A DNA stretch of 64,000 bases. Source: Kocuria tytonicola. Lineage in GTDB: Bacteria; Actinomycetota; Actinomycetes; Actinomycetales; Micrococcaceae. Positions 679 through 34,690 of the stretch are shown in pieces. The notes under the pieces were generated by a model, which was not told the DNA's origin, searched no databases, and saw only the letters and a list, made by a program, of their open reading frames with translations. The stretch spans positions 1-64,000 of the forward strand of contig NZ_PHOA01000003.1 in assembly GCF_003687455.1 (NCBI RefSeq), in the 5' to 3' direction. The position numbers and the translations under genes are program-made. Numbering within the stretch: position 1 is the stretch's first letter; the number at the start of each line of letters is the position of its first letter.

Positions 679-1716
679 TCACTCGGTGGCGGTGCCCTGC
701 TTCCAGTAGCCCATGAAGGAGATGTCCGTCTTGGGCACCCCGCCGCTCACGCACATCCGGCGCATGGACTTCACGGCGGAGGACTCCGCGGCCAGGAACC
801 AGTAGGTGCCCCGCCCCTCGGAGCGCGCCGTGTTCCACACGAACTCGCTCTCGTCCTGCCACCAGGACAGCTCGGTGTGCCCCGCGGCCCAGTGCCTGCG
901 GGCGTGCTCCGAGAGCCGCTCCCACAGCCACAGCTCCAGCTCCAGGTTGCGGTCGCGCGCCCCGCGCGGCAGCCACGTCCAGCGCAGCTCGGTGCCGCCC
1001 TCCAGGACCACGTCCAGCTCGGTGCCGTCCGCGGACGACGCCGCACGGGCCAGCGCGCGCGGACCGGCGGCCGCCACGGCGTCGCCCTCAGCGGGGACCT
1101 CCACGGCCACCGTGACGGTGCGCGGGGGAACGTAGGGGGTGTCCGCGGGGTGGTTGACCCGCACCCCCTGCTCGATGCCGTCCACGATCGCGGAGATCGC
1201 GGGAAGCGCGGTCTCGTCCCCGGCGACCACCACGTCCTGGCCGGCCGCACGGCGCTCGTCCCACGCGGCCCACCACGATCCGTCCCCAGCGGGCACGAGC
1301 AGCTGGGCGGTGTCCCCCTCCCGCACGGTGTCTCCCCACGCGGCTCCCGGGCCCATCCCGTGCTCGGGGTCCTCGTGGAGCACCACGTCGATGGCCAGCT
1401 CGGGGACGGTGGTCCCCGCGAGGTCCACTGTGGCGGCGTCGCGCACGGTGTACGTGCGCATCCAGCCGGAGCTCTCGGGCGGGGCGGCCATGAACTCGCG
1501 GCGCCACCGGGCCATGTCGGAGACGTCCACGGCCACGGAGCCGCCGCGGGTGGGCGGGATCAGCACCTTGATGTAGGAGTCCGCGCGCGGACCGGGGCCC
1601 TGGGCGCCCCACGGCAGCTCCCGCAGGGCCTCTCCCGCCACACGCACCCGCACCAGGTGCTCGCTGAGCATCTCGCGCGCTGTCACCGTGGCGTTCACGC
1701 ACGCCAGCTGGGTCAT
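679..1716 (-). CDS. Siderophore-interacting protein (FAD-dependent ferric-siderophore reductase)
   Basis: A 345-residue protein of the SIP/ViuB family, cytoplasmic flavoproteins that reduce imported ferric siderophores using NAD(P)H and so release iron. The N-terminal half is the FAD-binding barrel (VRVAGEALREL then a DSYIKVLIPP segment, and the RTYTVRDA flavin-contact motif near residue 85). The C-terminal half is the SIP domain, with AGDETALPAISAI and the closing family pattern that includes GYWKQG. The ATG overlaps the stop of the upstream ATPase gene (ATGA), so translation is probably coupled. It is the last gene of the iron uptake operon. A second SIP-family gene lies at 25028-25798. Confidence 0.9.
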   Translation of the reverse strand: MTQLACVNATVTAREMLSEHLVRVRVAGEALRELPWGAQGPGPRADSYIKVLIPPTRGGSVAVDVSDMARWRREFMAAPPESSGWMRTYTVRDAATVDLAGTTVPELAIDVVLHEDPEHGMGPGAAWGDTVREGDTAQLLVPAGDGSWWAAWDERRAAGQDVVVAGDETALPAISAIVDGIEQGVRVNHPADTPYVPPRTVTVAVEVPAEGDAVAAAGPRALARAASSADGTELDVVLEGGTELRWTWLPRGARDRNLELELWLWERLSEHARRHWAAGHTELSWWQDESEFVWNTARSEGRGTYWFLAAESSAVKSMRRMCVSGGVPKTDISFMGYWKQGTATE

Positions 1717-2753
1717 GAGGACACCTCGTGGTCGTCGGCTCGGATGGGGGACGGTGCTTCCGGGGTCCGCCCCGGGGGTGCGTCGGCGCACGGGGCGGAG
1801 GGCACCGGCACGGGTCCGGGCTGCGACGCCACCGGGGATCCGTCCGATGCGCCGGGGCGCGCAGCGCCCGTGGAGAGGGGGATGACCACGCGCGCGTCGG
1901 TCACGCGGTCGTGCAGCACGCGGGCGCGCATGTCGAACACGTGGCCCACCGTGGCGTCGGTCATCACCTCGGCGGCGGTGCCCTGGGCCACCACCACCCC
2001 GTCCTTGAGGGCCACGAGCACGTCCGCGCAGCGCGCGGCCAGGGACAGCTCGTGCAGCACCATCACCAGGGTGATCCCCCGCGCACGCTGCAGCTGCCCC
2101 AGGATGTCCAGGATCTCCACCTGCCGGGCGATGTCCAGGTAGGTGGTGGGCTCGTCCAGCAGCAGCACGTCCGTCTGCTGGGCCAGGGCGAGCGCGATCC
2201 ACACGCGCTGGCGCTGCCCGCCGGAGAGGTCGGTGACCTGCCGGTCCACCAGCTCGCGCAGGCCGGTGAGCTCGAGCGCCTCGGCCACGGCGGCGTCGTC
2301 CTGGGCGCGCCAGCGGCCGAACGCCCCGCGGTGGGGGTGGCGGCCCCGGGAGACGAGCTCCCGCACGCTCACGCCCTCCGGTGCCACCGGGTCCTGCGGC
2401 AGGAAGCCCACGGTGCGGGCGAAGCGCGTGCGGTGCCAGCCGCGCACGTCCTCTCCCCCCACCAGGACCTCACCGGAGGCTGGAGTGAGCTGCCGCGCGC
2501 AGGTCTTGAGCAGCGTGGACTTCCCGCAGCCGTTCGCGCCCACGAGCGCGGTGACCCGCCCCGCCGGGAACGTGACGCTCACGTCCCGCAGCACGGGGGC
2601 CCCGCCGTAGCCCACCTCCAGGTGCCGCACGGACATCTCGGGCGACGACGCCGCCCACCCGGCCCGCGCGGGACCGTCCGGTGCGTGCGGGGTCGCGGTG
2701 GTGCGTGGGGAGTTCTCGGTCACGGTGTCCCGGTCCTTGTCGTCGGTGGTCAT
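1713..2753 (-). CDS. Iron-siderophore ABC transporter ATP-binding protein (FecE/FepC type)
   Basis: A 346-residue cytoplasmic ATPase that powers siderophore import through the two membrane subunits encoded just upstream. Walker A is GANGCGKST (about residue 70), the ABC signature is LSGGQRQRVWIALALAQQ, and Walker B is LLLDEPTTYLD, the form typical of the FepC/FhuC group. An H-loop histidine follows (VLHELSLAARCAD). The core is flanked by an N-terminal tail of about 40 residues and a proline-rich C-terminal tail of about 50 residues that most family members lack. Start and stop overlap the neighbouring genes by ATGA, giving tight coupling. Confidence 0.93.
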   Translation of the reverse strand: MTTDDKDRDTVTENSPRTTATPHAPDGPARAGWAASSPEMSVRHLEVGYGGAPVLRDVSVTFPAGRVTALVGANGCGKSTLLKTCARQLTPASGEVLVGGEDVRGWHRTRFARTVGFLPQDPVAPEGVSVRELVSRGRHPHRGAFGRWRAQDDAAVAEALELTGLRELVDRQVTDLSGGQRQRVWIALALAQQTDVLLLDEPTTYLDIARQVEILDILGQLQRARGITLVMVLHELSLAARCADVLVALKDGVVVAQGTAAEVMTDATVGHVFDMRARVLHDRVTDARVVIPLSTGAARPGASDGSPVASQPGPVPVPSAPCADAPPGRTPEAPSPIRADDHEVSS

Positions 2754-3820
2754 GCCTCCGCCTTTCCGCGTCCGATGAGCAGCCACAGCAGCACGGGCGC
2801 TCCCGCCGCGGCGGTGACCACGCCCACGGGCAGGGCGAGGTCCGGAATGGCCTCGGCCGCCACGTAGTCCGAGACCACCATGAGCACCGCGCCCACGAGG
2901 GCGGCGTGGTGGGCGTGGCCCGCTCCCCCGCCCAGCCCCCGGGCAATGGGCGCGGCCATGAACGAGACGAACGCCACGGGGCCCACGGTGGAGGCCGCCA
3001 CGGCCACGAGCACCACGGCGAGCGCGAGGGCGGTGATCCGCACGCCCTGCACCCTCACGCCCAGACCGGCCGCGAGCGCGTCCCCGGTGCCGAGGGCGTC
3101 CACGGACGGGGCGAGCCACGCGCACACGGGCAGCAGCACGAGCAGGCACACCGCCACGCGGGCGATGTCCTCCCAGGAGGCGGCGTTCAGGGAGCCGGTG
3201 AGCCACTGCATGGCGTCCTGCGCGGCGTAGATGTCCGCGCGCGTGAGCACGGCGTTGATGGCGCCACCGGTGAGCGCGCCGCCGGCCACTCCGGTGAGCA
3301 CGAGCTTGCCGATGTTGGCGTGCGTGCCGCCCGCCGCGAGCACCACCGCGGCCATGAGGCCGATCCCGCCCACGAGGGAGCTCAGCGTCACGGCCGGCCC
3401 GGAGAGGCCGAAGACGGTGATGGCCACCACGGCGCCGAGCCCCGCCCCGGAGGAGACGCCCATGATGTCCGGTGACGCCAGGGGGTTGCGCAGCACGCGC
3501 TGGAACAGGTGGCCCGCGAGGCCGAACGCCATGCCGGTGAGGATCCCCAGCACGGTGCGCGGCAGGGTGATCTGCCACACGATGTAGTCGGCGGGTCCGG
3601 TGTAGTCGTGGGCCAGGACCGCGAGCAGGTCCGGCACAGCCACCACGTACTTGCCCAGTGCCACCCGGGCGAAGGCGGCCACGAGCAGCACAGCGAGCAG
3701 TCCGAGCGTGAGGCGGCGCGTGCGGCGTCGTGACCGGGTGCGGCCCGCCTGCACAGCGGCGAGCGTCCCGGTGGACGGTGCCGCCGGAGTGAGAGGGGCC
3801 GGGACAGTGGGGGCGCTCAT
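2750..3820 (-). CDS. Iron-siderophore ABC transporter permease, second subunit (FecCD family)
   Basis: A 356-residue integral membrane protein with about nine to ten hydrophobic segments. Family landmarks are visible: the LPRTVLGILTGMAFGLAGHLFQ stretch of the first periplasmic loop and next helix, then RNPLASPDIMGVSSGAGLGA, the characteristic BtuC/FecCD motif. It should pair with the product of 3817-4911 to form the membrane channel. The N-terminal 35 residues are alanine/proline/threonine-rich and then basic ([10 protein letters not shown]) before the first helix. The ATG overlaps the stop of the upstream permease gene (ATGA), and its own stop overlaps the ATPase start. Confidence 0.92.
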   Translation of the reverse strand: MSAPTVPAPLTPAAPSTGTLAAVQAGRTRSRRRTRRLTLGLLAVLLVAAFARVALGKYVVAVPDLLAVLAHDYTGPADYIVWQITLPRTVLGILTGMAFGLAGHLFQRVLRNPLASPDIMGVSSGAGLGAVVAITVFGLSGPAVTLSSLVGGIGLMAAVVLAAGGTHANIGKLVLTGVAGGALTGGAINAVLTRADIYAAQDAMQWLTGSLNAASWEDIARVAVCLLVLLPVCAWLAPSVDALGTGDALAAGLGVRVQGVRITALALAVVLVAVAASTVGPVAFVSFMAAPIARGLGGGAGHAHHAALVGAVLMVVSDYVAAEAIPDLALPVGVVTAAAGAPVLLWLLIGRGKAEA

Positions 3821-4911
3821 GCGCTCACCGTCTTCCCGCGCAGCACAGCCACGAGTGCGGGCGCGCCGATGACGACGAGGGCGATCCCCACCTGGATCTC
3901 GCGGTCCGGCACGAGCACCCGGGCAACGACGTCCGAGACCAGCACGATGAACGGGCCCGCAAACAGACATGCCGGGAGCACCCTGCGGTAGGAGACGCCC
4001 ACGAGCACGCGCACCGCGTGTGGCACCAGCAGGCCGCAGAACACGAGCGGGCCCACGAGTGCGGTGGAGGTCCCGGCGAGCAGCACCACGGCCACCCCGG
4101 CGAGCGAGCGCGTCAGGGCGGGGTGGGTGCCGAGGCCGCGGCCCAGCGCGTCGCCGAGCACGAGGGTGTCCAGGGAGCGGGCCAGCGAGCATCCCAGCAC
4201 GAGGCCGACGAGAATCACGGGGGTTGCCGCGACGAGGAAGGTGCCGTCCGGGCGGGTCAGCTCCCCCACCTGCCAGCGGCGGAACGTGTCGAAGGTGGCC
4301 TGGTGGCTCAGCAGGATCGCGCTCGTGAGCGCCGTGAGCCCGGCGGAGACGGCCGCACCCGTGAGCGCGAGGGTCACGGGCCGGGCCCCGCCGCGCGCCG
4401 CGGCGGCCAGGGCGTAGATCGCGACCATGGCCACGGCGGAGCCGAGGGCCGCGAGCCACAGCTGGTGCGTGACCCCTGAGAGCCCGAATGCGGCCCCACC
4501 GAGCACCACCGCGAACGCGGCACCCGCGGTCAGCCCCAGGATCCCGGGGTCCCCCAGCGGATTGCGCGTGGCCCCCTGCAGCAGGGCCCCCGCAACCGCG
4601 AGCGCGGTCCCGGTGAGCAGCCCGGCGGCGGTGCGCCACACGCGGGACTCCACCACGGCGCCGTCGAGCGCGGGAACGCCCGGAACGGAGCCCGGGTCAC
4701 CCCCGAACACGCTCGGCACCACCCGCCACGTGCTCCCGAGGTCGATCGGGCGGGAGCCGCACGAGACCGAGAGGAGCACCGAGAGCACGAGCAGCACGCC
4801 GAGCACGAGCCACGGCACGGCCCGACGCCCCGGGCGCCCCGCACGGGCGAAGTGGTCCGTGCGGACGGGGCTCGGGGCGTCGGCGCGCGCGAGGGTGCTG
4901 CTCGGGGCCAC
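3817..4911 (-). CDS. Iron-siderophore ABC transporter permease, first subunit (FecCD family)
   Basis: A 364-residue polytopic membrane protein of the BtuC/FecCD family. The motifs WRTAAGLLTGTALAVAGALLQ and RNPLGDPGILGLTAGAAFAV match the family blocks. The cytoplasmic coupling region (GLGTHP...) precedes the last helices, which include GPLVFCGLLVPHAVR. The start is taken as GTG at 4909-4911, six bases after the stop of the binding-protein gene. No ATG is suitably placed between there and the first helix. With the neighbouring permease it forms a heterodimeric siderophore importer. Confidence 0.9.
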   Translation of the reverse strand: MAPSSTLARADAPSPVRTDHFARAGRPGRRAVPWLVLGVLLVLSVLLSVSCGSRPIDLGSTWRVVPSVFGGDPGSVPGVPALDGAVVESRVWRTAAGLLTGTALAVAGALLQGATRNPLGDPGILGLTAGAAFAVVLGGAAFGLSGVTHQLWLAALGSAVAMVAIYALAAAARGGARPVTLALTGAAVSAGLTALTSAILLSHQATFDTFRRWQVGELTRPDGTFLVAATPVILVGLVLGCSLARSLDTLVLGDALGRGLGTHPALTRSLAGVAVVLLAGTSTALVGPLVFCGLLVPHAVRVLVGVSYRRVLPACLFAGPFIVLVSDVVARVLVPDREIQVGIALVVIGAPALVAVLRGKTVSA

Positions 4912-4916
4912 GGAGG

Positions 4917-5981
4917 CTAGGCCCCCAGCGCGTTCTTGATCGCCGGGACGTGGGTGTCCAGGGCGTGCGGCAGGGACAGCGGGGAGGACGAGTAGCCCGA
5001 GAGCACGTCCTGCTTGCTCGTGAGGAACAGCCCGTGGCCGGCCGCGATCGCGGGAATGGTCTTGAGCACGGAGTCGGTGCGGAACGTCTCGGCCTGGGCG
5101 TCGTCCTCCGCGGCGGCCACGAACAGGTCGCTGTGCAGCTCGTCCGCGCGCTCCTTGGGCCACTCGCGCCAGAACTCCTTCTCCGAGATGTTCTCCTTCA
5201 CCACCGGGGCCAGGCTCAGACCCAGCTCGGTGAGGAAGCGGGGGCGCCCGTCCGAAGGGCCGTAGAAGCCCAGGGACTGGGTGACGTCCCCGTAGATGAA
5301 GGTCTTGCCCTGGGCGCCGCCCAGGTCCTCGGAGCGCTCGCGGATGAGCTTCTCGGTCTGGGACACGAGGTCCTCTCCGGCCTGTGCGCGCCCCAGGGCC
5401 TGGGCGGTGAGCCGCTGCATGTCCTGCCACGAGTTGACCCACGGGCCCGTGGGGTAGGCCACCACGGGGGCGATCTTGGTGAGCCGCCCGTACTCCTCCT
5501 TGGTCACCCCGGAGTTCACCGCGATGATCAGGTCCGGGCTGAGCTGGGCGAGGTCCGTGAAGTTGATCCCGTCCGACTCGTCCATGGTCTGGGGGCTCTG
5601 CCCGCCCAGCTCGGAGACCTTGGCGTCGAACCAGTCCGTGGAGCCCTTGTCGTTGCCGCCCCACGCGACCTTGGTCATGCCCACGGGGACCACGCCGAGT
5701 GCGGCCACGAAGTCCTGGGTGTTGCTGGCACCCACGCACACCACGCGCTCGGGGGCCTTCTCCACGGTGGTGGAGCCCAGGGCGTGCTTCACCGTCACGG
5801 GGAAGGTGTCGGTGGGGGCCGAGGAGGCCGTGGCACCCGCGGTGCTGCCGGAGCCGCCGCCGTCCCGGGAACCGGTGGAGCAGGCCGTGAGCCCCACGAG
5901 GGACGCGAGGGCGAGGCCGGAGCCGAGCAGGGTGCGGCGGTCGAGCTGACGCGGGCGGGGCTGGGACGAGTCGCGGGACAT
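4917..5981 (-). CDS. Iron-siderophore-binding lipoprotein (FepB/FhuD type)
   Basis: A 354-residue substrate-binding protein. The N-terminus has a basic segment with a twin-arginine pair (LDRRTLLGSG), a hydrophobic stretch and a lipobox ending in LTAC at about residue 34, so it is probably exported and lipid-anchored on the outer face of the membrane. The mature part has the periplasmic-binding fold pattern of cluster A-II (VEKAPERVVCVGASNTQDFVAALGV, then LAQLSPDLIIAVNSG). It would capture ferric siderophore and pass it to the permeases. This is the first gene of the operon, with AGGAG upstream and an IdeR-like box about 27 bases before the ATG. Confidence 0.92.
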   Translation of the reverse strand: MSRDSSQPRPRQLDRRTLLGSGLALASLVGLTACSTGSRDGGGSGSTAGATASSAPTDTFPVTVKHALGSTTVEKAPERVVCVGASNTQDFVAALGVVPVGMTKVAWGGNDKGSTDWFDAKVSELGGQSPQTMDESDGINFTDLAQLSPDLIIAVNSGVTKEEYGRLTKIAPVVAYPTGPWVNSWQDMQRLTAQALGRAQAGEDLVSQTEKLIRERSEDLGGAQGKTFIYGDVTQSLGFYGPSDGRPRFLTELGLSLAPVVKENISEKEFWREWPKERADELHSDLFVAAAEDDAQAETFRTDSVLKTIPAIAAGHGLFLTSKQDVLSGYSSSPLSLPHALDTHVPAIKNALGA

Positions 5982-6007: not shown

Positions 6008-6026
6008 TAAGGCTTGCCTAACCTAA
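6008..6026 (-). promoter_or_regulatory. IdeR/DtxR-type iron box upstream of the siderophore uptake operon
   Basis: Read on the minus strand, the 19 bases TTAGGTTAGGCAAGCCTTA match 16 of 19 positions of the classical DtxR/IdeR consensus TTAGGTTAGGCTAACCTAA. The site lies directly upstream of the binding-lipoprotein ATG, where a repressor would block transcription when iron is plentiful. Its position before a siderophore operon supports the call. Confidence 0.85.
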
Positions 6027-23777: not shown

Positions 23778-25031
23778 TCAGTGGCGCGCGAGCAGCGGGT
23801 GGGAGCGGCAGAGCAGCACCCCGAGCACCACGAGCGCGAGTCCGAGCACGAGCGAGACGCCGTAGCCGGTGATGCTGGCGAGCACCAGCCCCGCCGAGGC
23901 GCCGATGGTTCCGCCCAGCATGGAGATGGAGCTCAGCAGCGTGAAGTCGGCGCCCGCGTGGCCCGGGCGGGAGATGTCCAGGTTCACGGCGTAGATGCCC
24001 GTGTTCATCACGGTGTAGCCCGCGAGCACACCGCACGCCCCCACCACACCGAAGCCCACCTGCGCGCCGTGCGGCACGGCGAGAGCGCTCCACACGACCG
24101 GGACGAAGCACGCGCCGCCGAGCAGCTGGACCGCCGCCCCGATCAGCAGGGCAGTCCCGCGTCCGTACCGGCGGCACAACCGCCCGCCCAGCAGTGCCGC
24201 GCCGAGCGCGGGGGCCGCGGCAACCACGGACGTCACCGTGCCGATGAAGCCGAGGGACCACCCGGCGTCCACGAGCGCGGGGGTCACGAGCGACCACACC
24301 GCCGCCGAACCCAGCGCCACGAGCGGCACGGCCACGAGCCCCCACACACGGGCCCCGGGGACGCTCAGCACACCGAACATGGCCGAGAGCCTCCCCACCT
24401 CGGGGTCCGGGACCACGCGCTCGGTCTCGCTGTGCCGCAGCACGGGGACCATGGCGAGCGCGGTGCACAGGGCCAGCACCACGACGGCCGCACGCCACCC
24501 CCACGCGTCGTAGATCAGCAGGGCCAGGCCGCCGCCGATCACGGTGCCGATGTAGCTCGCGCCCACCTGGATGCCCGCGCCGAGGTCGTGCTGCTCGCTC
24601 GTGAGTCCGCGCACGGACAGGGCGTCCGCGGCAATGTCCTGGGTGGCGGAGAAGACCACGAACGCGGCGGCCAGTGCCACGACCGCCCCCAGGCCGTCCT
24701 GGGGGTCCCCGACCACGGCCATGGCCAGCAGGGACACCACCATCAGCGGCTGGAGCACCAGCAGCCACGAGCGGAAGTGGCCGCGGGAGCGCCCCGGGGA
24801 CCAGCGGTCCAGCAGGGGCGCCCACAGGAACTTCAGCGGCCACACGAGCGCCAGCAGCTGCAGCAGCCCGAGCGTGCCGAGGTCCGTGCCGCCGTCCCGC
24901 AGGATGCCCACCAGCCCGGTGGAGAGGAACGAGGCCCCGATGAACTGGGTGGTGTACAGCGCCCAGAGCAGCCACCAGAAGCCGTTGCTGGTCCGCACCG
25001 GGGCGGTCTCGGGTGCGGTCAGGGTGCTCAT
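23778..25031 (-). CDS. MFS transporter, RhtX/FptX (AmpG-like) siderophore permease type
   Basis: A 417-residue protein with twelve predicted hydrophobic segments. The early motif WPLKFLWAPLLDRWSPGRSRGHFRSW matches the AmpG/RhtX/FptX group (key residues KFLWAPLLDR at about 66-75), whose members carry muropeptides or import ferric siderophores across the inner membrane. The ATQDIAADALSVRGL segment is also typical. Here it overlaps a siderophore reductase gene (ATGA) and diverges from siderophore biosynthesis genes, which favours siderophore import over muropeptide import. Export of the new siderophore cannot be excluded from sequence. Confidence 0.8.
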   Translation of the reverse strand: MSTLTAPETAPVRTSNGFWWLLWALYTTQFIGASFLSTGLVGILRDGGTDLGTLGLLQLLALVWPLKFLWAPLLDRWSPGRSRGHFRSWLLVLQPLMVVSLLAMAVVGDPQDGLGAVVALAAAFVVFSATQDIAADALSVRGLTSEQHDLGAGIQVGASYIGTVIGGGLALLIYDAWGWRAAVVVLALCTALAMVPVLRHSETERVVPDPEVGRLSAMFGVLSVPGARVWGLVAVPLVALGSAAVWSLVTPALVDAGWSLGFIGTVTSVVAAAPALGAALLGGRLCRRYGRGTALLIGAAVQLLGGACFVPVVWSALAVPHGAQVGFGVVGACGVLAGYTVMNTGIYAVNLDISRPGHAGADFTLLSSISMLGGTIGASAGLVLASITGYGVSLVLGLALVVLGVLLCRSHPLLARH

Positions 25032-25798
25032 GTGCTCCTCCAGTACGCCGTGGCGTCGATGTTCGTGCGCGGCACGCCGTAGCGGGTCCGCAGGGTGGTG
25101 CTCAGCGTCCGGTTCTGCTGCGCCTCCACGGCGATCCAGAACCTGTCACCGGCCGCGGGGTGCTCCGTGTCCCAGTGGCTCAGGACGGCGTCCGCGAGCT
25201 CCTCGCCCTCCCCGCGGCGCCGGACGCGGCGTACCCGGTGGTGCTCGGCGGCGGCCAGCGGGAGGGACTCGTCCTCGGGGTTGCGGTACTCGAACCACAC
25301 CTCCACGTCCCGGGAGGAGAGCCGGGTCAGCATCGAGTTCACGGCCGGCAGGCTCGCGGGGTCCCCCACGATCACGGTGCGCCCCGGAAAGTCCGCGTCG
25401 AGTGCCGCGGATGGCGCCTCGGGAGTCCCGCGGCGGGGGTTCTTCTTGGGCTGCCACGGCGGGGTGCTGCCCAGCAGCGAGGCACGGATGGTGTCCCCGG
25501 GTGCGCACGTGCGCGCCCAGTCGGACGCCGCACCCGCGTGCAGGGCGAACTCCAGGTCGAACAGGCCCTCCTCGGGGCGCGGGTCGATCACCGTGAACGC
25601 GCGCTGGTGGTCCCTGCCCTCGTGTGTGAACCACAGCCGCAGCCACAGCGTGGGGAACGGGGTGTGCCGGGCCAGGAACCCCTCGTCCCGCACCGTGATG
25701 CGCGCATAGGTGGGGCTCACGTCCCGCCGGGACACCACCGTGAGCCTGGTCTCCGAGGCACCCAGGGCGCGCACGGCCAGTCGTTCCCAGTGGGGCAT
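25028..25798 (-). CDS. Siderophore-interacting protein (ferric-siderophore reductase, DesF-like)
   Basis: A 256-residue SIP-family flavoprotein, shorter than the copy at 679-1716. FAD-binding features are YARITVRDEGFL and HQRAFTVIDPRPEEGLFDLEF. The SIP domain contains VGDPASLPAVNSML and the typical final pattern RTLSTTLRTRYGVPRTNI ending in AYWRST. It would reduce ferric siderophore in the cytoplasm. AGGAG precedes the ATG. The stop overlaps the MFS start. Its position next to desABD genes matches desF in Streptomyces, which likewise encodes a SIP. Confidence 0.88.
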   Translation of the reverse strand: MPHWERLAVRALGASETRLTVVSRRDVSPTYARITVRDEGFLARHTPFPTLWLRLWFTHEGRDHQRAFTVIDPRPEEGLFDLEFALHAGAASDWARTCAPGDTIRASLLGSTPPWQPKKNPRRGTPEAPSAALDADFPGRTVIVGDPASLPAVNSMLTRLSSRDVEVWFEYRNPEDESLPLAAAEHHRVRRVRRRGEGEELADAVLSHWDTEHPAAGDRFWIAVEAQQNRTLSTTLRTRYGVPRTNIDATAYWRST

Positions 25799-26059
25799 GG
25801 TTCTCCTCGCTCGGTGGGCGCCCGCGGGCGCCGTGATCTCGGTCTCAGTCAGGACGACGACGCCGGGCCGGTCCCCCGCGCGCTGCCGCGCCTCTCGGGG
25901 CCAACCGGTTCCCGGGGCGCCGCGCGGAGCGGGTTCGCGACCCGGGCGCGACTGTCCAAAGCCTGATGCTTAGGTTAGCCTAACCTGCTGTCGAATAGGT
26001 GACGAATTTGTATCTTATTACGTCCCACGAGTGCACCCGACGGAAAGAAGCACTGTTCC
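25799..26059. other. Divergent regulatory region of the desferrioxamine locus
   Basis: 261 bases between the SIP gene and desA. It holds the IdeR-like box at 25970-25988 and, between 25990 and 26020, an unusually AT-rich stretch (AATTTGTATCTTATTA) with TATCTT as a possible -10 for desA. The SIP-side half is GC-rich and has no separate iron box that I can see. Confidence 0.6.
25970..25988 (+). promoter_or_regulatory. IdeR/DtxR-type iron box upstream of desA
   Basis: TTAGGTTAGCCTAACCTGC matches 16 of 19 positions of the DtxR/IdeR consensus, and its core AGGTTAG-C-CTAACCT is a perfect inverted repeat with seven-base arms. It is 72 bases before the desA ATG and about 170 bases from the divergent SIP start. 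Confidence 0.9.
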
Positions 26060-27538
26060 ATGAGTTCACCCCTGCTGCACCAGGACACCGTTGCGGATCT
26101 GATGCGGGACGTCACCGCGGCCACGGCCGCCGGCGCCGCACGGATCGCAGGCGCCCAGCAGCCCCACGAGCCCGCCGAGCACCGTGACGTGGCGGGGGCC
26201 GTGGAGCGCATCGACCTGGACACCCCGCTCGGGGACTTCGACGCCACCGTGGAGGAGCTGGACCGCACGTGGCTGCGCCACGCCGTGTGGTTCCACCACC
26301 CGCGCACGCTCGCGCACCTGAACTGCCCCGTGGCCGTCCCGGCGGTGGCCGCGGAGGCGCTGGCGGCCACGGTGAACGTGTCCATGGACACGTGGGACCA
26401 GTCCAAGGCGGCCACCGCGATCGAGCGCTCGCTGCTGTCCTGGACAGCGGGGCGCATCGGCTTCCCCGCCACCGCGGACGGCATGTTCACCCCGGGCGGG
26501 ACCACCTCCAACCTGCAGGCCCTGATGCTGGCCAGGGACGAGGCCCTCGAGGCGAGCGGGCAGCAGCCGGGGGCAGCGCCGCGACCGGTGCGGGCGGCGT
26601 CGTTGCGCATCCTGGCCAGCGCCGAGAGCCACTTCTCGGTGGTCACGGCGGCGCGGATCCTGGGTCTCGACGACGACTGCGTGATCCCCGTGCCGGTGGA
26701 CGAGACTGGCGCGCTGTCCGTGGCCGCGGCGCGCCGGACGGTCGTGGACCTGCGGGAGCAGTCGCTCACGCCCATGGCGGTGGTGGCCACGGCGGGCACC
26801 ACGGACCGGGGGATGGTCGATCCGCTGCCCGAGCTCGCGCGGCTGTGCGGCGAGCACGGGATCTGGCTGCACGTGGACGCCGCGTACGGGGGCGGGCTGC
26901 TCGTCTCCCCCACGCACCGCGACCGGCTGGCCGGGATCGAGCACGCGGACTCGGTGACCGTGGACTACCACAAGACGTGGTTCCAGCCCGTGAGCTGCTC
27001 GGCCGTGGTGGTGCGCAACGGACGCACCCTGCGCCACTGCGCCCACCACGCGGCCTACCTCAACCCCGCGGACACCCCCGAGCCCAACCAGGTGGACCGC
27101 TCGCTGCAGACCACGCGCCGCTTCGACGCCCTCAAGTTGTGGGTCACGCTGCGCACCGTGGGCCCGGACGCGATCGGCGGGATGCTCGACACCGTGATCG
27201 ACCTCGCGGCGCGGGTCGCGGACGTACTGCGCGCGGACCCCCGCTTCGAGCTCGTGTGCGAGCCGATCCTGAGCACGGTGCTGTTCCGCTGGCTGCCGCC
27301 CGCCGACGGCCCCGCACCCGGGGATCCCGACCCGTGGGTGCGCGCGATCCGCCGCGCGGTCTGGGACACGGGCCGCGCCACGATCGCCGAGACCGAGGTG
27401 GCCGGGCGCCCGTGCCTCAAGCTCACGCTGCTGAACCCCGAGACCACCCTGCAGGACGTGCAGGGCGTCCTGGAGCTGGTCCACGAGACCGCTCTGCCCC
27501 TGACCGAGCACCAGAACACCGGAAAGGCCTGCGCATGA
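26060..27538 (+). CDS. desA: PLP-dependent L-lysine decarboxylase of siderophore biosynthesis (DesA-like)
   Basis: A 492-residue group II amino acid decarboxylase. It should turn lysine into cadaverine, the backbone unit of desferrioxamine. PLP-site landmarks are FTPGGTTSNLQAL (phosphate contact), HVDAAYGGGLLVS (aspartate that holds the pyridine nitrogen) and TVDYHKTWF with the Schiff-base Lys305. Related enzymes act on diaminobutyrate or glutamate. The lysine assignment rests on the neighbours: an N-hydroxylase, an acyltransferase and an NIS synthetase follow directly. The ATG has GAAAG upstream. The stop overlaps the next start (ATGA). Confidence 0.9.
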   Translation: MSSPLLHQDTVADLMRDVTAATAAGAARIAGAQQPHEPAEHRDVAGAVERIDLDTPLGDFDATVEELDRTWLRHAVWFHHPRTLAHLNCPVAVPAVAAEALAATVNVSMDTWDQSKAATAIERSLLSWTAGRIGFPATADGMFTPGGTTSNLQALMLARDEALEASGQQPGAAPRPVRAASLRILASAESHFSVVTAARILGLDDDCVIPVPVDETGALSVAAARRTVVDLREQSLTPMAVVATAGTTDRGMVDPLPELARLCGEHGIWLHVDAAYGGGLLVSPTHRDRLAGIEHADSVTVDYHKTWFQPVSCSAVVVRNGRTLRHCAHHAAYLNPADTPEPNQVDRSLQTTRRFDALKLWVTLRTVGPDAIGGMLDTVIDLAARVADVLRADPRFELVCEPILSTVLFRWLPPADGPAPGDPDPWVRAIRRAVWDTGRATIAETEVAGRPCLKLTLLNPETTLQDVQGVLELVHETALPLTEHQNTGKACA

Positions 27539-29595
27539 CACCCCACGAGACCCCGTCGCCCACCGCGTGCCCCGCGGACCGGGGCACCCCCGAGCTGCCG
27601 CTGGACCTGCTGTGCGTGGGGGTGGGACCGTTCGGGCTCGGACTCGCGTGCCTCACGGACCCCCTGCGGGACGTGCGCGCCGCGTTCCTGGACGCCGCGG
27701 ACGGCTTCGACTGGCACCCCGGGCTGCTGTTCGAGGACGCCACGCTGCAGGTCCCGTTCCTCGCGGACCTCGTGACCATGGCCGATCCCACTTCCAGGTT
27801 CTCCTTCCTGCAGTGGCTCAAGGAGACGGACGAGCTGTACCCCTTCTACGTGCGGGAGTCCTTCTACCCCCTGCGCCGGGACTACAACGCGTACTGCCGC
27901 TGGGCCGCCGAGCGGGCACGCGGGATCCACTGGGGCCACCGGGTCACGGAGGTCACCCGGCCCGCGGGCGAGGGCCCGTGGTGCGTCACCGCGGCGGCAC
28001 GCGGCGAGACGCGCACGTGGTGGACCCGTCACCTCGTGGTGGGCGCCGGAACCGTGCCCACCGTGCCGCCGCAGCTGGAGGCGGTCGCCGGGGACACCGT
28101 CCACGCCGGGGACTACCTGGGGCACCGGGAGGATCTCCTGCGCCGACGCCACGTCACGGTGGTGGGCTCCGGACAGTCCGCCGCGGAGGTGTTCCTGGAC
28201 CTCGTCAGCGCGCCGGACGCGCCCGCCGTGGACTGGATCACGCGCTCCCCGCGCTTCTACCCCATGGAGTACTCGAAGCTCAGCCTGGAGCTGACCTCCC
28301 CCGACTACCTGGACCACTTCCGGGCCCTGCCCGAGGCGGACCGGGAACGGCTCAACGCCTCCCAGCCCCAGCTGCACCGCGGCATCTCGGACGACACGAT
28401 CGACGCGATCCACGAGGCCCTCTACGTGCGCCGCCACGCGGACGCGGCCCCCGTGCGGCTCGTGGCCGCGACCGAGCTCACGGACGCCTGGCACGAGGGC
28501 GGGCGCACCGTCCTGCGCTGGCGCAGCACCGAGAACCACCGCGTGCGCGAGACCGTCACGGACGCCGTGGTGGCCGCCACCGGCTACCGCCCCGCGGACC
28601 TGGACTGGCTCGCACCGGTCACCGACCAGCTCTCGACCGACGCCGCGGGCCGGCTGAGCCCGGACCGGCACCACCGCGCGAGCCCGGACGGCACCGTGCA
28701 CGTGCTCAACCACGGCGAGCACACCCACGCGCTGACGGCCCCGGACCTGGGCATGGGACCGCTGCGCAACGCGCACGTGCTGGCCCACGTCACCGGCCGG
28801 GCCCCGTACGCCACCGAGGAGCACACCACGTTCCAGAGCTTCGGCCGGATCCCCCAGGGCGACACCGTTCCCCGCCTCGCGGCCGAGCGTTGGGGGGACG
28901 GTGCGGTGGAGGTCCGTTCCCAGGACCGCACGTTCTCGCTGCGCCCCGTGGATCCCGAGCGCGATCTCGCCCTGCTCCACGGGTGGCTCAGTGCGCCCCG
29001 CGCCCACGCCTGGGAGCTGGTGGACGCCACCCCCGAGCAGGTGCTCGCGGAGTACCGCCGGATGGCCGCCGCCCCCGGGGAGGACGCCTGGATCGTGAGC
29101 GAGCACGGCACCCCGCTGGCCCTGCTGGAGACCTACGACCCCGCCCGCAGCCCCCTGGCCGCCGTGTGGCCCGTGCGCGACGGCGACGCCGGTCTGCACC
29201 TCTTCGTGGCCCCCGCCGACCGCCCCGTTCCCGGCACCACGCGCGCCGTGATGGCCGCGGCCCTGCGGTTCCTGTGGTCGGACCCCGGCGTGCAACGGGT
29301 GCTCGTGGAGCCGGACGTGCGCAACGAACGGATCCGGGCGATCAACCGCTGGGCCGGGTTCCGGGAGGTCGGCGAGGCCCGCCTGCCGGGCAAGACCGCG
29401 TGCGTGAGCGTGGTCGAGCGCCCCGCCGCGCAGGACGACGCCGCGCCCGTCCACGGTGCCGCGCGCGCCCGCGGTGCCACCTCCGACCGCAGCACCGACC
29501 CCGCCGCCCCCGTGAGCGACCGCGCCGGGCGGCAGGCGCCCGAGCACGCGGCGTCCCCGTGCACCACGAGCACCCGTGCGGAGGCCGACCGGTGA
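27535..29595 (+). CDS. desB: Fusion: lysine/cadaverine N-hydroxylase (DesB) with GNAT siderophore acyltransferase (DesC-like)
   Basis: A 686-residue two-domain protein. Residues about 20-440 are a flavin N-monooxygenase of the IucD/DesB type: FAD motif VGVGPFGLGLA, FLADLVTMADPTSRFSFLQWL, NADPH motif VTVVGSGQSAAEV (about 209) and VVAATGYRP (about 345). Residues about 465-640 are an IucB/RhbD-type acyl-CoA N-acyltransferase (SLRPVDPERDLALLHGWLSAPRAHAWEL, GLHLFVAP, EPDVRNER at 592). Together they would hydroxylate and acylate cadaverine, the two middle steps of desferrioxamine assembly; these are separate genes desB and desC in Streptomyces. About 45 disordered residues close the protein. ATGA and GTGA overlaps couple it to both neighbours. 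Confidence 0.9.
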   Translation: MTPHETPSPTACPADRGTPELPLDLLCVGVGPFGLGLACLTDPLRDVRAAFLDAADGFDWHPGLLFEDATLQVPFLADLVTMADPTSRFSFLQWLKETDELYPFYVRESFYPLRRDYNAYCRWAAERARGIHWGHRVTEVTRPAGEGPWCVTAAARGETRTWWTRHLVVGAGTVPTVPPQLEAVAGDTVHAGDYLGHREDLLRRRHVTVVGSGQSAAEVFLDLVSAPDAPAVDWITRSPRFYPMEYSKLSLELTSPDYLDHFRALPEADRERLNASQPQLHRGISDDTIDAIHEALYVRRHADAAPVRLVAATELTDAWHEGGRTVLRWRSTENHRVRETVTDAVVAATGYRPADLDWLAPVTDQLSTDAAGRLSPDRHHRASPDGTVHVLNHGEHTHALTAPDLGMGPLRNAHVLAHVTGRAPYATEEHTTFQSFGRIPQGDTVPRLAAERWGDGAVEVRSQDRTFSLRPVDPERDLALLHGWLSAPRAHAWELVDATPEQVLAEYRRMAAAPGEDAWIVSEHGTPLALLETYDPARSPLAAVWPVRDGDAGLHLFVAPADRPVPGTTRAVMAAALRFLWSDPGVQRVLVEPDVRNERIRAINRWAGFREVGEARLPGKTACVSVVERPAAQDDAAPVHGAARARGATSDRSTDPAAPVSDRAGRQAPEHAASPCTTSTRAEADR

Positions 29596-31616
29596 GCCCC
29601 CGGACGAGCACCGCCCACGTGCCCTCCGCATCCGGTTCCGCCGCCTCGACCTCGGGCGCGGCGAAGCCCCCGCAGCCCGGCGGGACGACCGGCGAGGACA
29701 ACGCCGTCGAGACGGACGGACAACGCGCGACCGCGAACGCCCACCACATGCGCGGCGCCGTCATGGACCCCTCCGGGGCCGAGGCGCCGCGTCAGCGCCC
29801 TGCGAGCAACGAACCCGCGGGCGGTGACCGTGCGTCGTCGTCCGCTGTGCGGCCCACCCCCGCACCCGCGCTGGACCGCCAGACCGCGCGGGCCCTGGAA
29901 CGGGACGTGCTGGCCAAGATGTTCTCCGAGTTCAGCCACGAGCGCATGCTGCGCCCCGAGCGCTCGGGCGCGGGCTGGACCGTGGCGGACGGCACGGGAG
30001 CACCGTGCTGGTACTTCGAGGCCACGCGCCACCCGCTGGAGCACTGGGAGGTGGACCCGGCGTCGGTGCGGCGCATCGTCCCCGGGTCCGCGGACCGCGA
30101 GCCGGACGCCCAGCAGGCCGTGCTGGACCTGCGGGACGTGCTGGGGCTCAGTGACGAGATGCTGCCCCTGTACCTGGAGGACCTCTCGGCGACCATGTTC
30201 TCCATGGCCCAGCGCCGCGCCGCTCCCGCCCCCACCGCGGCGGAGCTCGCGCACGCGGACCTCGCGGACGTGGAGCGCTTCCTGGACCGTGGCCACCCCG
30301 GGTTCGTCGCGAGTTCCGGGCGTGTGGGCATGGGCGCCGCCGAGCAGCACGCCTGGGCGCCGGAGGCCGCGGAGCCGACGCCGCTCACGTGGCTCGCGGC
30401 GCGCCGGAGCCTGTGCGCGGTGTCCCTGGGCGGGCACCTCACGGACGCCGAGCACCTGGAGCGCCACCTCACGCAGACGGAGCTCGAACGCTTCCGTGCC
30501 GCCGTGCGCGCGGTCGGCGAGAACCCGGACGAGTACACGGTGGTCCCGGTGCACCCGTGGCAGTGGGAGCACCGCATCCTGCCGGGGATGCTCCCGGACG
30601 TGCTGCGCCGGGACCTCGTGCTGGTGGGTCAGGGCGAGCACGCGTGGCGGGCGCAGCAGTCCCTGCGCACGTTCCTGGACGTCACCGACCCGCGGCGGGA
30701 CTACGCCAAGACCGCCATCGGGGTGCACAGCATGGGCTTCCTGCGCGGGCTCTCCCCCGCGTACATGGCCACGATGCCCGCGATCAGCGACTGGCTGCAC
30801 GAGATCGTGTCCGCGGACGAGCTGCTGAGCGGCAGCGGCATCCGCGTGCTGCGGGAGCACGCCGCGGTGGGCTACACCGGGGACGCGCACCACCGCAGCG
30901 GGCTCCGCTCGGACCACACCAAGCAGCTCGCGGCCCTGTGGCGGGAGTCCCCCGTGGCCCTGCTGGCACCGGACGAGCACGCCGCGAGCCTCGCCGGGGT
31001 GCTGCACACGGACCGGGAGGGCCGCCCCCTGGCCGGGGCGTGGATCGAACGCTCCGGTGTCTCCCCCGCCGAGTGGGTGGCCGCCCTGCTGGACGTGTAC
31101 CTGGTGCCGGTGGCGCACCTGCTGCTGTCCCAGGACATCGCCCTGATGCCCCACAGCGAGAACGTCATCCTGCGGCTGCGGGACGGACTGCCCGTGGGGG
31201 CGTTCTGGAAGGACCTGGGCGAGGAGGTCGCGGTGCTCAGCGAGCGCCCCCTGCCGGAGGGCATCGAGCGGATCCGCGCGGTGACCGAGCCCGAGGAGCG
31301 GGAGCTGTCCATCCACACGGACGTCCTGGACGGCGTGCTGCGCCACCTCGCGGTGCTGCTGCACACCACGGGCGTGCTGGACGAGACCCAGTTCTGGGCG
31401 CTCGCCGCCCGCGCGCTGGACTCCCACCGTGCCCGGTTCCCGCAGCACTGGCGGGAGCTGGACCTGTTCCGGGAGAGCTTCGCCCACTCGTGCCTGAACC
31501 GGCTGCAGCTGCGCAACCCCCAGCAGATGGTGGACCTCACGGACCAGTCCGCGTCCCTCACCTACGCGGGGCGGCTGGAGAACCCGCTGGCCACGTTCCG
31601 GGACGGCGCACGGTGA
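29592..31616 (+). CDS. desD: NRPS-independent siderophore synthetase (IucA/IucC family, DesD-like)
   Basis: A 674-residue frame from GTG 29592 (overlapping the previous stop). The NIS synthetase core starts near residue 95 (RALERDVLAKMFSEFSHERML). It shows VVPVHPWQWEH (about 317), QQSLRTFLDV and KTAIGVHSMGFLRGLSPAYM (ATP-binding region). Such enzymes adenylate a carboxylate and condense it with an amine. DesD joins and cyclises N-hydroxy-N-succinylcadaverine units into trimeric desferrioxamine. The first 90 or so residues are low-complexity and absent from the usual enzyme of about 600 residues. Met53 and Met58 are possible later starts. The stop overlaps the next start by GTGA. Confidence 0.92.
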   Translation: MSPRTSTAHVPSASGSAASTSGAAKPPQPGGTTGEDNAVETDGQRATANAHHMRGAVMDPSGAEAPRQRPASNEPAGGDRASSSAVRPTPAPALDRQTARALERDVLAKMFSEFSHERMLRPERSGAGWTVADGTGAPCWYFEATRHPLEHWEVDPASVRRIVPGSADREPDAQQAVLDLRDVLGLSDEMLPLYLEDLSATMFSMAQRRAAPAPTAAELAHADLADVERFLDRGHPGFVASSGRVGMGAAEQHAWAPEAAEPTPLTWLAARRSLCAVSLGGHLTDAEHLERHLTQTELERFRAAVRAVGENPDEYTVVPVHPWQWEHRILPGMLPDVLRRDLVLVGQGEHAWRAQQSLRTFLDVTDPRRDYAKTAIGVHSMGFLRGLSPAYMATMPAISDWLHEIVSADELLSGSGIRVLREHAAVGYTGDAHHRSGLRSDHTKQLAALWRESPVALLAPDEHAASLAGVLHTDREGRPLAGAWIERSGVSPAEWVAALLDVYLVPVAHLLLSQDIALMPHSENVILRLRDGLPVGAFWKDLGEEVAVLSERPLPEGIERIRAVTEPEERELSIHTDVLDGVLRHLAVLLHTTGVLDETQFWALAARALDSHRARFPQHWRELDLFRESFAHSCLNRLQLRNPQQMVDLTDQSASLTYAGRLENPLATFRDGAR

Positions 31617-34600
31617 GCGCGGGAGCCGGCTGGCAGCTGTTCCGCGACCCCCACGGGGTGCCCCACGTGCAGGCCGAGGACCTCACCGCGCTCGCCCACG
31701 GCCACGGGTACGTCACCGGGGTGGACCGCGCCTGGTACGCGGAGGTCCTGCGACGCCGGGCCGAGGCGCGCTCCGCGGAGCTCGTGGGCCCGGACGCCCT
31801 CGACGCCGATCAGCTGAGTCTCGCGGTGGACGTGGTGGGCACCGCGCGGCGCTGGTGGGAGGCGTCGTCGCCCGAGGACCGCGCGTTCTTCGCGGCCTAC
31901 GCCCGCGGGATGAGCGAGGCGCTGGCCGAGGTGTGGGTTGAGACCCCCCAAGCCCGCGCGGCCGGGGTGGCGGACACTCCCGTCCGGCCGTGGGACCCGT
32001 GGACCCCGGTCGCCGTGCACCTGGACGCCCACCTGCTCACGGGCAGCCTGCCCGAGCAGCTGTGGCGACGCCGCGTGCGCGCCACCCTGGGCGAGGCGTG
32101 GGTTCCCGTGCTGGACGCCGAGTCCCCGGCGGCCGCCGGGTCCAACGCGTGGCTCGTGCCCGGTCACCTCTCCGCCAGCGGCGCGCCCCTGCTCGCGGCG
32201 GACCCGCACCGGATCGTGGAGGAGTCCGGACCGTACCAGCCGGTGTGCCTGTCCGCGCCGGGCCTGCGGGTGCGGGGGCTTGCGCTCGTCGGTCTGCCGG
32301 GGGTGCCCCACTTCGGGCGCACCGAGTCCGCGGCGTGGGCCATCACCGCTGCCATGACGGTCACCGAGACGGTCACGGACGTGGCCCTGGAGCACCGGGC
32401 CGGTGCGTGGCGCGTGGCGGACACGGGCGAGCCCCTCGAACGGCACCGCACGGTGCTGCGGGCGGGGGACGGCGTGGAGCGACCGTGCTCCGTGTGGCGC
32501 TGCGCGGCGGGCTTCGTGCTCCCCGGCACCGGGGCGGATCAGAACGCCCTCGACGACGCCGCGGCCGGCGACCGCGCGACCGTCACCGTGGTGACCCCCG
32601 CCCCCGTGCCGGACACCGCGCGGGCGCTCGCGGCATGCCGGGAGACCCTGCTGGCGCGCACCGCGGATGACGTGCTGGACGCCTTCACCGGCTGGGCGGT
32701 GCCGTGCAACGACCTGCTCGCGGCGGACGGCGAGGGAGCGTGCCGCCACGCCGTGGTCGGGGCGTTCCTCGGGGAGCACGAGCCGCGCCGCGAGCTGCGG
32801 GAGATCACGGTGCGCGCCAACCAGCGGCCTTCCTCCCCCGGCGGATCGGCGGCCCGGCTGGCGTGCGCGTCCCCGCACCGGGCGCAGCGCGCCACCGCAC
32901 TGCTCCGGCACGCGGTGGACCGGCACGGCACCGTGACCCTGGAGGACCTGGCCGCCGCGCAGCTGGACACCGCCGCCCCGCACTGGCCCGGACTGTTGAG
33001 GTCCCTGTTTGCAGAGCCCGCTCCGGGATCGGCGTCGGCCGCCCCGGAGACTGGAAGGGGTGCCACGCACCCGGCAGGTGGGCCCGCTCCGACACCGGCT
33101 TCCGGCCCAGCACCGGCTGCGGACCCAATACTGGATGCGGGCCCGGGCGCGGCCTCGAGTTCCGGGGAGGCGTCCACTCCGGCACGGCGCCCGGGCGCAG
33201 GGACCACGTCCGATGACGGGCGACCACCCCGGCTGTCCCATGCGGCGTCGTGGGTGCGTGCCCGGCTGCTCTCGTGGGACGGGAGCATGGCCGCGGAGTC
33301 CACCGGGGCCTCGTGGTTCGCCGTGTGGCGCGATGCGTTCGTGCGCGAGCTCGTGGCCGGCACGGAGCTCCGTGCCCTGACCGGGCCCACCGGCATGCCC
33401 GCGGTGTGGGACCCGTTCCTGCACGGCCCGGGGCGTGTGGGGCTCGCGGTGGAGAACGTCCTCCGCCGCGGCCCCGCGCTCGGTGTGGACGTCACGACCT
33501 GCGCACTGGTCGCCCTCGAGCGGGTGGCCGAGGATCACCTCGCGGCGGGTGGTCAGGTGCTGCCCGCGTGGGGAACGCTGCACGCCTTCACCCCGTGGCG
33601 CGGCGAGCCCGCCGCCACGGCCGTGGACCCGGTGCCCGTGGGCGGGGACACCGACTGCCTGCTCGCCACCGGAACCGTGCCCGGTACGGGGCCCGCGTGC
33701 CTGCGGGTGCCCGCGGCGCGGGTGCTGTGGGACCTCGCGGACCCGGCGGCGTCGTGGTGGATCACCCCCGATCCGGTGGATCGGAGGGCCAGCGCCTCCG
33801 TGGGGGACGGCCGCGAGTCCCCCGGCGTTCCCGTTCCCGGCGTTGCGGACGTCGGCGCGCAGACCCCCGAAGCACCGGCCGCCAGCGCGCCGGCCCCCAT
33901 CCTGCCGGGCCGCGCGGACGGGCACCCGCGTTCCGGTGCCCCGGACGTCGGGTCGTCGTTCGCCGGGCACCCGCTGTCCGGGACCCCGGAAGCCGGGTCG
34001 ACCTCCGCCGAGACCCCTGCCCGGGGCGGGAGCCCGCTCGCGCGGTGGGCCCGCGGCGAGTTGGACCACGCTCTGCCGTGGGTCCCGGCGGGTGCGGTGG
34101 GGCCCACGGGTGCCGTGCTGGACCTGGGTCCCCTGGAGCCCACGGGTGACGGAGAGAGCGAGGCCCCGCGTGCCGCGCTGCGCCCTGTGAACCCAGCGCG
34201 CGACGCCGCACTGCTGCACGAGTGGGTCAGCGCGCCGCGCGCACGATTCTGGGGGATGAACGGGCTGAGCGTCCGGGAGGTGCAGGAGATCTACACGTAC
34301 CTGGAGGCCTCACCCACCCACCACGCGTGGCTCCTCGAGCTGGACGGCGAGCCCGTGGGCCTGTTCCAGAGCTACGAGCCGCACGCCGATCCCGTGGGCG
34401 CGCTCTACCGGGTGGAGCCCGGGGACCTCGGGATCCACGTGCTGCTGGCTCCCGTGCGGCGTCGGCGGCCCGGGCTCACGGCGGCCCTCGGTCGGGCGGC
34501 GTTGGGGCAGATTGCCCGCCACGGGAGCACGCGACGGATCGTCGCCGAGCCGGACGTGTCCAACGAGCGGGCCCTCTCCCGTGCCGTCGCCATGGGCTTC

Positions 34601-34690
34601 GAGCTGAGACCCGCCGTCGAGCTGCCGGGCAAGACCGGGCGGCTCGCGTTCCTGCGCGTGCCCGCCACCCCGCCGGAGGGCCGCGGCTGA
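31613..34690 (+). CDS. Fusion: penicillin-amidase-family Ntn hydrolase (DesG-like) with second GNAT acyltransferase
   Basis: A 1025-residue protein with three parts. Residues 1 to about 460 and about 545-720 form an S45 penicillin acylase: the maturation and catalytic site AGSNAWLV places the N-terminal nucleophile at Ser177, and RANQRPSS supplies an oxyanion asparagine at 403, near the 240-residue spacing of penicillin G acylase. Two long alanine/proline/serine linkers interrupt it (about 465-545 and 730-840). Residues about 853-1020 are an IucB-type acyltransferase (LRPVNPARDAALLHEWVSAPRARFW, EPDVSNER at 979). No signal peptide is seen, so it is probably cytoplasmic. A penicillin-amidase gene (desG) has been proposed to supply phenylacetyl groups for arylated desferrioxamines. 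The function here is inferred. Confidence 0.82.
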   Translation: MSAGAGWQLFRDPHGVPHVQAEDLTALAHGHGYVTGVDRAWYAEVLRRRAEARSAELVGPDALDADQLSLAVDVVGTARRWWEASSPEDRAFFAAYARGMSEALAEVWVETPQARAAGVADTPVRPWDPWTPVAVHLDAHLLTGSLPEQLWRRRVRATLGEAWVPVLDAESPAAAGSNAWLVPGHLSASGAPLLAADPHRIVEESGPYQPVCLSAPGLRVRGLALVGLPGVPHFGRTESAAWAITAAMTVTETVTDVALEHRAGAWRVADTGEPLERHRTVLRAGDGVERPCSVWRCAAGFVLPGTGADQNALDDAAAGDRATVTVVTPAPVPDTARALAACRETLLARTADDVLDAFTGWAVPCNDLLAADGEGACRHAVVGAFLGEHEPRRELREITVRANQRPSSPGGSAARLACASPHRAQRATALLRHAVDRHGTVTLEDLAAAQLDTAAPHWPGLLRSLFAEPAPGSASAAPETGRGATHPAGGPAPTPASGPAPAADPILDAGPGAASSSGEASTPARRPGAGTTSDDGRPPRLSHAASWVRARLLSWDGSMAAESTGASWFAVWRDAFVRELVAGTELRALTGPTGMPAVWDPFLHGPGRVGLAVENVLRRGPALGVDVTTCALVALERVAEDHLAAGGQVLPAWGTLHAFTPWRGEPAATAVDPVPVGGDTDCLLATGTVPGTGPACLRVPAARVLWDLADPAASWWITPDPVDRRASASVGDGRESPGVPVPGVADVGAQTPEAPAASAPAPILPGRADGHPRSGAPDVGSSFAGHPLSGTPEAGSTSAETPARGGSPLARWARGELDHALPWVPAGAVGPTGAVLDLGPLEPTGDGESEAPRAALRPVNPARDAALLHEWVSAPRARFWGMNGLSVREVQEIYTYLEASPTHHAWLLELDGEPVGLFQSYEPHADPVGALYRVEPGDLGIHVLLAPVRRRRPGLTAALGRAALGQIARHGSTRRIVAEPDVSNERALSRAVAMGFELRPAVELPGKTGRLAFLRVPATPPEGRG

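Follow-up and report, generated by a model that had tools for sequence, protein, structure and literature searches.

A fused DesG-DesH protein in a desferrioxamine-type operon of Kocuria tytonicola and its proposed role in succinyl-to-acetyl exchange

A 64,000-nucleotide stretch of Kocuria tytonicola DNA (contig NZ_PHOA01000003.1, positions 1 to 64,000; hereafter the window) contains a four-gene operon, desA-desBC-desD-desGH, whose members are linked by 4-nt overlaps. The last gene, desGH, is the subject of this analysis. It encodes an S45-family N-terminal nucleophile (Ntn) hydrolase, DesG, and a GNAT acyltransferase, DesH, in one frame. The coordinates of both halves, of the segments between and within them, and of the neighboring genes are collected in Table 1.

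Table 1. Coordinates of the desGH frame, its parts and the surrounding iron-related features in the window
Feature	Position	Strand	Length or basis
desGH: DesG (S45 Ntn hydrolase) and DesH (GNAT acyltransferase) in one frame	31613..34690	+	1025 aa
DesG part, residues 1-722	31613..33778	+	Pfam, alignment, predicted model
Pro/Ala/Gly-rich low-complexity insert within the DesG beta chain, residues ~474-533	33032..33211	+	Alignment, predicted model
Interdomain linker, residues ~725-850	33785..34162	+	Pfam boundaries, repeat search
DesH part (GNAT), residues 851-1025	34163..34687	+	Pfam; signature Gln919 and Asp926
desA, pyridoxal phosphate-dependent decarboxylase	26060..27538	+	Pfam, NCBIfam
desBC, lysine/ornithine N-monooxygenase-type DesB fused to GNAT DesC	27535..29595	+	Pfam
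desD, IucA/IucC-type synthetase of the nonribosomal peptide synthetase-independent siderophore class (IucA_IucC and FhuF domains)	29592..31616	+	Pfam
Iron-box-like palindrome TTAGGTTAGCCTAACCT upstream of desA	25970..25988		Motif search
Siderophore-interacting protein (FAD_binding_9 and SIP), ferric-siderophore reductase candidate, divergent from the operon	25028..25798	-	Pfam
Major facilitator superfamily transporter, divergent from the operon; best NCBIfam match RhtX/FptX-type siderophore transporter, below cut-off	23778..25031	-	Pfam, NCBIfam

The desGH frame and its two halves

The desGH frame runs uninterrupted from a GTG start, which overlaps the desD stop by 4 nt, to a TGA stop, and its third-position G plus C content is 0.82-1.00 in every block of up to 100 codons. 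Pfam places Penicil_amidase (PF01804) on the product in two stretches (best stretch residues 10-384) at 289.1 bits, compared with a curated cut-off of 21.3, and Acetyltransf_8 (PF13523) on residues 861-1003 at 151.9 bits. Both matches bear out the initial annotation of this DNA, which had read the frame as an S45 hydrolase followed by an IucB/RhbD-like GNAT domain; the first disposes of the possibility, also raised there, that the N-terminal part belongs to some other family.

The initial annotation had further described two disordered linkers. The second, residues ~725-850, does join the two domains and contains 2.4 copies of a 45-bp tandem repeat (33919-34025). The first, residues ~474-533, proved to be of a different kind. 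In the predicted model, which covers the DesG half, these residues have predicted local distance difference test (pLDDT) values under 50, and both the PDB matches and the model indicate that the S45 fold picks up again at ~526-543 and ends at ~722. This segment is an insert within the S45 beta chain, and the sole linker between domains is ~725-850. The insert varies in length among the aligned Kocuria rows, being long in the window and two K. marina rows but short or missing in the other four.

Ser177 (AGSNAWLV) aligns with residue 1 of solved S45 beta chains (beta 1) and is the predicted nucleophile. Together with Asn403 (RANQRP) it had been picked out initially, and neither residue varies across 22 aligned DesG rows or across the 42 rows of a wider set. 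The two hallmarks of S45 membership, a Ser nucleophile at the beta-chain N-terminus and an oxyanion Asn, are both present. The window DesG is 34-38% identical to 15 Streptomyces- or Arthrobacter-type rows that adjoin desH, and falls inside their group on the tree; this grouping and the shared DesH neighbor uphold the proposed link to desG. DesG should act in the cytoplasm, since only 10 residues precede the RDPHGVPH motif in the alignment and leave no room for a signal peptide.

By sequence, the closest solved relatives of DesG are 35sz, the glutaryl-7-aminocephalosporanic acid (7-ACA) acylase 4hsr and the D-succinylase 7ea4/7eby, with penicillin G acylases behind. The first of these, entitled "penicillin acylase family protein", ranks highest, its beta chain scoring 326.6 bits with a Streptomyces DesG; it was compared by sequence only and is not among the fold matches listed by Foldseek and VIA-align. 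Foldseek ranks D-succinylase first. VIA-align ranks glutaryl acylase first (Z 26.1, root-mean-square deviation 3.6 Å, 550 residues aligned) and D-succinylase fourth (Z 23.6, 3.6 Å, 600 aligned). As VIA-align favors single-chain precursors over two-chain entries, beta chains were also compared with beta chains, giving Z scores of 20.9 for 4hsr_B and 15.6 for the E. coli penicillin acylase 1e3a_B.

Two acyl-pocket positions, Arg200 (beta 24) and His233 (beta 57), are likewise invariant in 42 of 42 DesG rows. L109, the one S45 row that is not a DesG, has Leu at beta 24 and a gap at beta 57. Arg and His occupy the same two positions in 4hsr, and the Arg is matched in D-succinylase. Mutant structures touch both sites: beta 57 is among the positions separating the double mutant 4hst from 4hsr, and the PvdQ entry 4bth, whose title refers to altered substrate use, is changed at Phe beta 24. 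E. coli penicillin acylase has Phe at both positions. This aromatic acyl pocket of the penicillin G acylases is not found in DesG, which has Arg200 and His233 there. From these residues, the basic pocket would seem to fit a succinyl group better than a phenylacetyl group.

In the GNAT half, one position separates DesC from DesH, being Glu in 56 of 56 DesC rows and Gln in 47 of 47 DesH rows (Glu532 of DesBC and Gln919 of DesGH in the window), where rows were classed by neighboring genes, not by subfamily sequence, and include near-copies from the same genome. A second position, Asp926 in the window, is Asp in all 47 DesH rows and mostly Ser (46/56) or Val (8/56) in DesC. Because Gln919 and Asp926 follow the DesH pattern, the GNAT half is classed as a DesH and set apart from the DesC that is joined to DesB.

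Spread of the fusion and the surrounding operon

A match to the query occurs somewhere in 19 of 27 Kocuria genomes, and 12 of the 27 have a DesG locus. In 10 of these, DesG and DesH share one open frame. In one (G012) the locus is split across contig ends, although its second piece (L022) keeps the DesG end and DesH in one frame, and in another (G001) it is broken into several frames. The initial annotation had named a frameshift or an assembly error as a possible source of the fusion. This is rejected because the same single frame recurs across the genus, including the single-contig genomes G010 and G013. In six further Kocuria genomes (loci L015-L020), a single frame behind DesB encodes both DesC and DesD, and DesG is missing; in two of them, G005 and G006, S45 matches elsewhere are weak only. 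G019 shows a weak S45 match and no other. A rule that a DesC-DesD fusion excludes DesGH was considered and rejected, as three genomes of the same family (G038, G050 and G067) carry a DesC-DesD frame in addition to DesG and DesH.

The frequency of the fusion, which the initial annotation had proposed to map, was also estimated outside the genus; few candidates were scored per genome (up to 10 in the family sample, three in the phylum sample), so that all DesG counts are lower bounds. An IucA/IucC match is found in 48 of 120 sampled family genomes, and the DesG profile matches at least 11 of the 120 at E 1e-40 or better. One of these (G096, locus L109) carries a different S45 protein, with no DesH. 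The other ten comprise six with the fusion and four in which a DesH domain starts within 202 nt past the DesG stop. In the phylum sample, at least 15 of 396 genomes match DesG at E 1e-100 or better: four are fused (the window counted), eight have separate adjacent genes, and three have no DesH within 1.3 kb downstream. A search of named genomes gave 36 loci, made up of nine from Kocuria, 15 others with DesG (12 Streptomyces and three Arthrobacter or Pseudarthrobacter) and 12 with the GNAT part only (L057-L068, among which L057 was scanned). The DesH domain starts 40-92 nt past the DesG stop in all 15 named DesG loci outside Kocuria.

A DesG tree of 46 rows requires at least four gains or losses of the fused state (starred branches force four changes; bootstrap 4-5), a number that is rough given long-branch warnings (L109, L106; long branches meeting). 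The tree leaves out broken or partial loci (L008, L014, L037, L038 and L050) and loci repeating an included genome. On the strength of this tree, a single origin of the fusion is rejected. Recurrence in several lineages fits DesG and DesH acting on the same intermediate. Three loci of family f6 (L139, L140 and L141) are DesG-like with the same Arg/His pocket, and form a separate clade.

All four families by which the desABCD cluster is recognized in PMC12161575 (PF00282, PF13434, PF13523 and PF04183) are found by Pfam in the window. Judged by this gene set, the operon probably makes desferrioxamines, in agreement with the initial annotation, which had placed the fusion in a desferrioxamine-type operon. 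The iron-box-like palindrome lies 72-90 nt before the desA start and came from a search that allowed up to three mismatches to an iron-box consensus and for which no match is expected (100 shuffles); it would serve an IdeR/DmdR-type iron repressor. A second such site, with three mismatches, is found at 6008-6026 on the minus strand. It precedes a gene group at 1713-5981 (minus strand) that begins with a Peripla_BP_2 gene and continues with two frames for FecCD permeases and one for an ABC ATPase. These genes are likely to encode an iron-regulated ferric-siderophore importer.

The operon has a second fused gene, desBC. DesB and DesC form one frame in the window and in seven of the eight named Kocuria loci that have the gene, the eighth (L050) being broken there. 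Among further Micrococcaceae loci covered by the analysis (L015-L020, L069-L098 and L112-L124), none shows such a frame, and a literature search aimed at the DesB-DesC fusion returned PMC12161575 but no paper on that fusion.

Proposed function and its alternatives

Desferrioxamine B (DFO B) is used as a drug against iron overload, and what decides between it and the cyclic desferrioxamine E (DFO E) has come under study only recently. A report of June 2025 in PLoS Biology (PMC12161575) describes the operon desJGH of Streptomyces coelicolor and names DesG and DesH. According to this report, DFO B falls about 1000-fold without desG and 16-fold without desH, DFO E rises in both mutants, and complementation brings DFO B back. 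Its authors propose that DesG strips succinate from N-hydroxy-N-succinylcadaverine (HSC) and that DesH acetylates the freed amine. Nine producers lacking desGH are reported there to make uncapped desferrioxamines only.

We consider it likely, with a probability of about 0.7, that the desGH product is the DesG-DesH fusion of the desferrioxamine pathway and swaps the succinyl group of HSC for acetyl on the way to DFO B. In this scheme, DesG would be a cytoplasmic, self-cleaving S45 amidase that hydrolyses succinyl off HSC, the product of DesC. DesH would then use acetyl-CoA to acetylate the freed N-hydroxycadaverine, yielding N-hydroxy-N-acetylcadaverine (HAC), and HAC would cap the chain built by DesD, so that Kocuria would make DFO B instead of the uncapped DFO E. 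The tether between the two enzymes may be of benefit here; according to PMC12161575, fusion would allow DesH to act ahead of re-succinylation.

The initial annotation had proposed that the fusion places an aryl or other acyl group on N-hydroxycadaverine. In the aryl reading, the S45 half supplies or transfers phenylacetyl to give arylated desferrioxamines. Penicillin G acylases do belong to the S45 family, and PMC12161575 includes aryl caps among those reported and notes that desG was originally proposed to account for the phenylacetyl-capped desferrioxamines of some strains. The pocket nevertheless has Arg and His in every DesG row, as in glutaryl acylase, and the nearest solved proteins whose substrate is named work on glutaryl or succinyl groups. 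Moreover, the knockouts altered acetyl-capped DFO B in S. coelicolor, for which the same report gives no arylated desferrioxamine as known, and aryl transfer is thus highly improbable. A longer acyl-CoA might instead be used by DesH after desuccinylation by DesG, giving a fatty-acyl-capped product. The signature positions of DesH were not linked to acyl length in the GNAT comparison, and acetyl-, fatty-acyl- and aryl-capped desferrioxamines together come from 34 of 47 sequenced producers in PMC12161575, where most producers have desGH; the S. coelicolor DesH, however, supports acetyl-capped DFO B, and we regard such caps as improbable for the window.

The initial annotation had also suggested that the fusion might degrade or edit siderophores. 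In this reading, DesG would cleave completed or imported desferrioxamines, or the succinyl amide bonds in them, within the cell, and DesH would re-cap the fragments. Such editing or recycling would suit a protein predicted to be cytoplasmic and an operon that adjoins reductase and transporter genes, but desGH is embedded in the biosynthetic operon through its 4-nt overlap, and the knockouts of PMC12161575 shift the balance of DFO B and DFO E made, for which a biosynthetic step is the simpler account. Editing is therefore judged unlikely.

Several observations weigh against the proposed exchange of succinyl for acetyl. The single-chain N-acylhomoserine lactone acylase MacQ is also a good fold match (Z 22.5), the beta-57 His of DesG has no counterpart in D-succinylase, 4hsr is by its PDB title an engineered acylase, and the pocket loop 200-205 is poorly modelled (pLDDT under 50). 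Residue 246 is Ala in Kocuria DesG (10 rows) and Asn in other DesG proteins (32 rows), so substrate use of the Kocuria enzymes may differ. None of the three DesG-like loci of family f6 is followed by a DesH within 1.3 kb. In NCBIfam, DesA matches best to diaminobutyrate decarboxylase and DesB to histamine N-monooxygenase, each with a score far under the cut-off, and the diamine used is thus read from the gene set. The literature searched yielded no enzyme assay for a DesG. Finally, a metabolomics table in PMC10052678 lists DFO B in experiments 2-6 and not for K. rhizophila alone (experiment 7), which says little, because S. coelicolor alone is likewise unlisted in that table.

The presence of both a DesB-DesC and a DesG-DesH fusion means that each of the two enzymes that would yield N-hydroxycadaverine, DesB from cadaverine and DesG from HSC, carries an acyltransferase. 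It is tempting to speculate that N-hydroxycadaverine hardly leaves either protein, so that all monomers would be succinylated first and HAC would arise solely through the DesG-DesH swap. How much of each fusion protein is present, and not competition for a shared pool, would then determine the ratio of succinyl to acetyl monomers. This extension is tentative and on balance doubtful. If the tethers do channel the intermediate, HAC would have to pass through HSC, and DesG would be essential for DFO B. For the proposed swap itself, a fusion holding both steps would be a convenient single reagent for testing the model in vitro.

Comparison with known systems

Among characterized proteins, the class III glutaryl-7-ACA (cephalosporin) acylase 4hsr shares with DesG the S45 Ntn fold, the N-terminal beta-chain Ser and the two basic pocket residues. 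However, identity over the aligned beta chain is 24%, and 4hsr has no GNAT domain. The Cupriavidus D-succinylase shares the S45 fold and a DPHR motif with DesG and has, by its name, a succinyl substrate; its identity is 20-21%, and the two enzymes differ at the beta-57 His. A siderophore GNAT joined to a pathway enzyme is also seen in DfoC (5o7o, "Desferrioxamine siderophore biosynthesis protein dfoC"), whose GNAT is similar to that of the window. The partner in DfoC, however, is one that we take to be a DesD-type synthetase and not an S45 hydrolase.

The nearest parallel is provided by DesG and DesH of S. coelicolor (SCO4049 and SCO4050; PMC12161575), which agree with the window in their two families, their order and their pathway. 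In S. coelicolor the two genes are separate and lie away from desABCD, whereas in the window a single fused gene closes the operon. The initial annotation had taken this exact fusion to be undescribed. PMC12161575, in whose main text Kocuria does not occur, already reports desG-desH fusions from S. atratus and Micrococcus spp. CH3 and CH7, like the one in the window. The Kocuria desGH is thus a further example of the described DesG-DesH fusions and not a new one.

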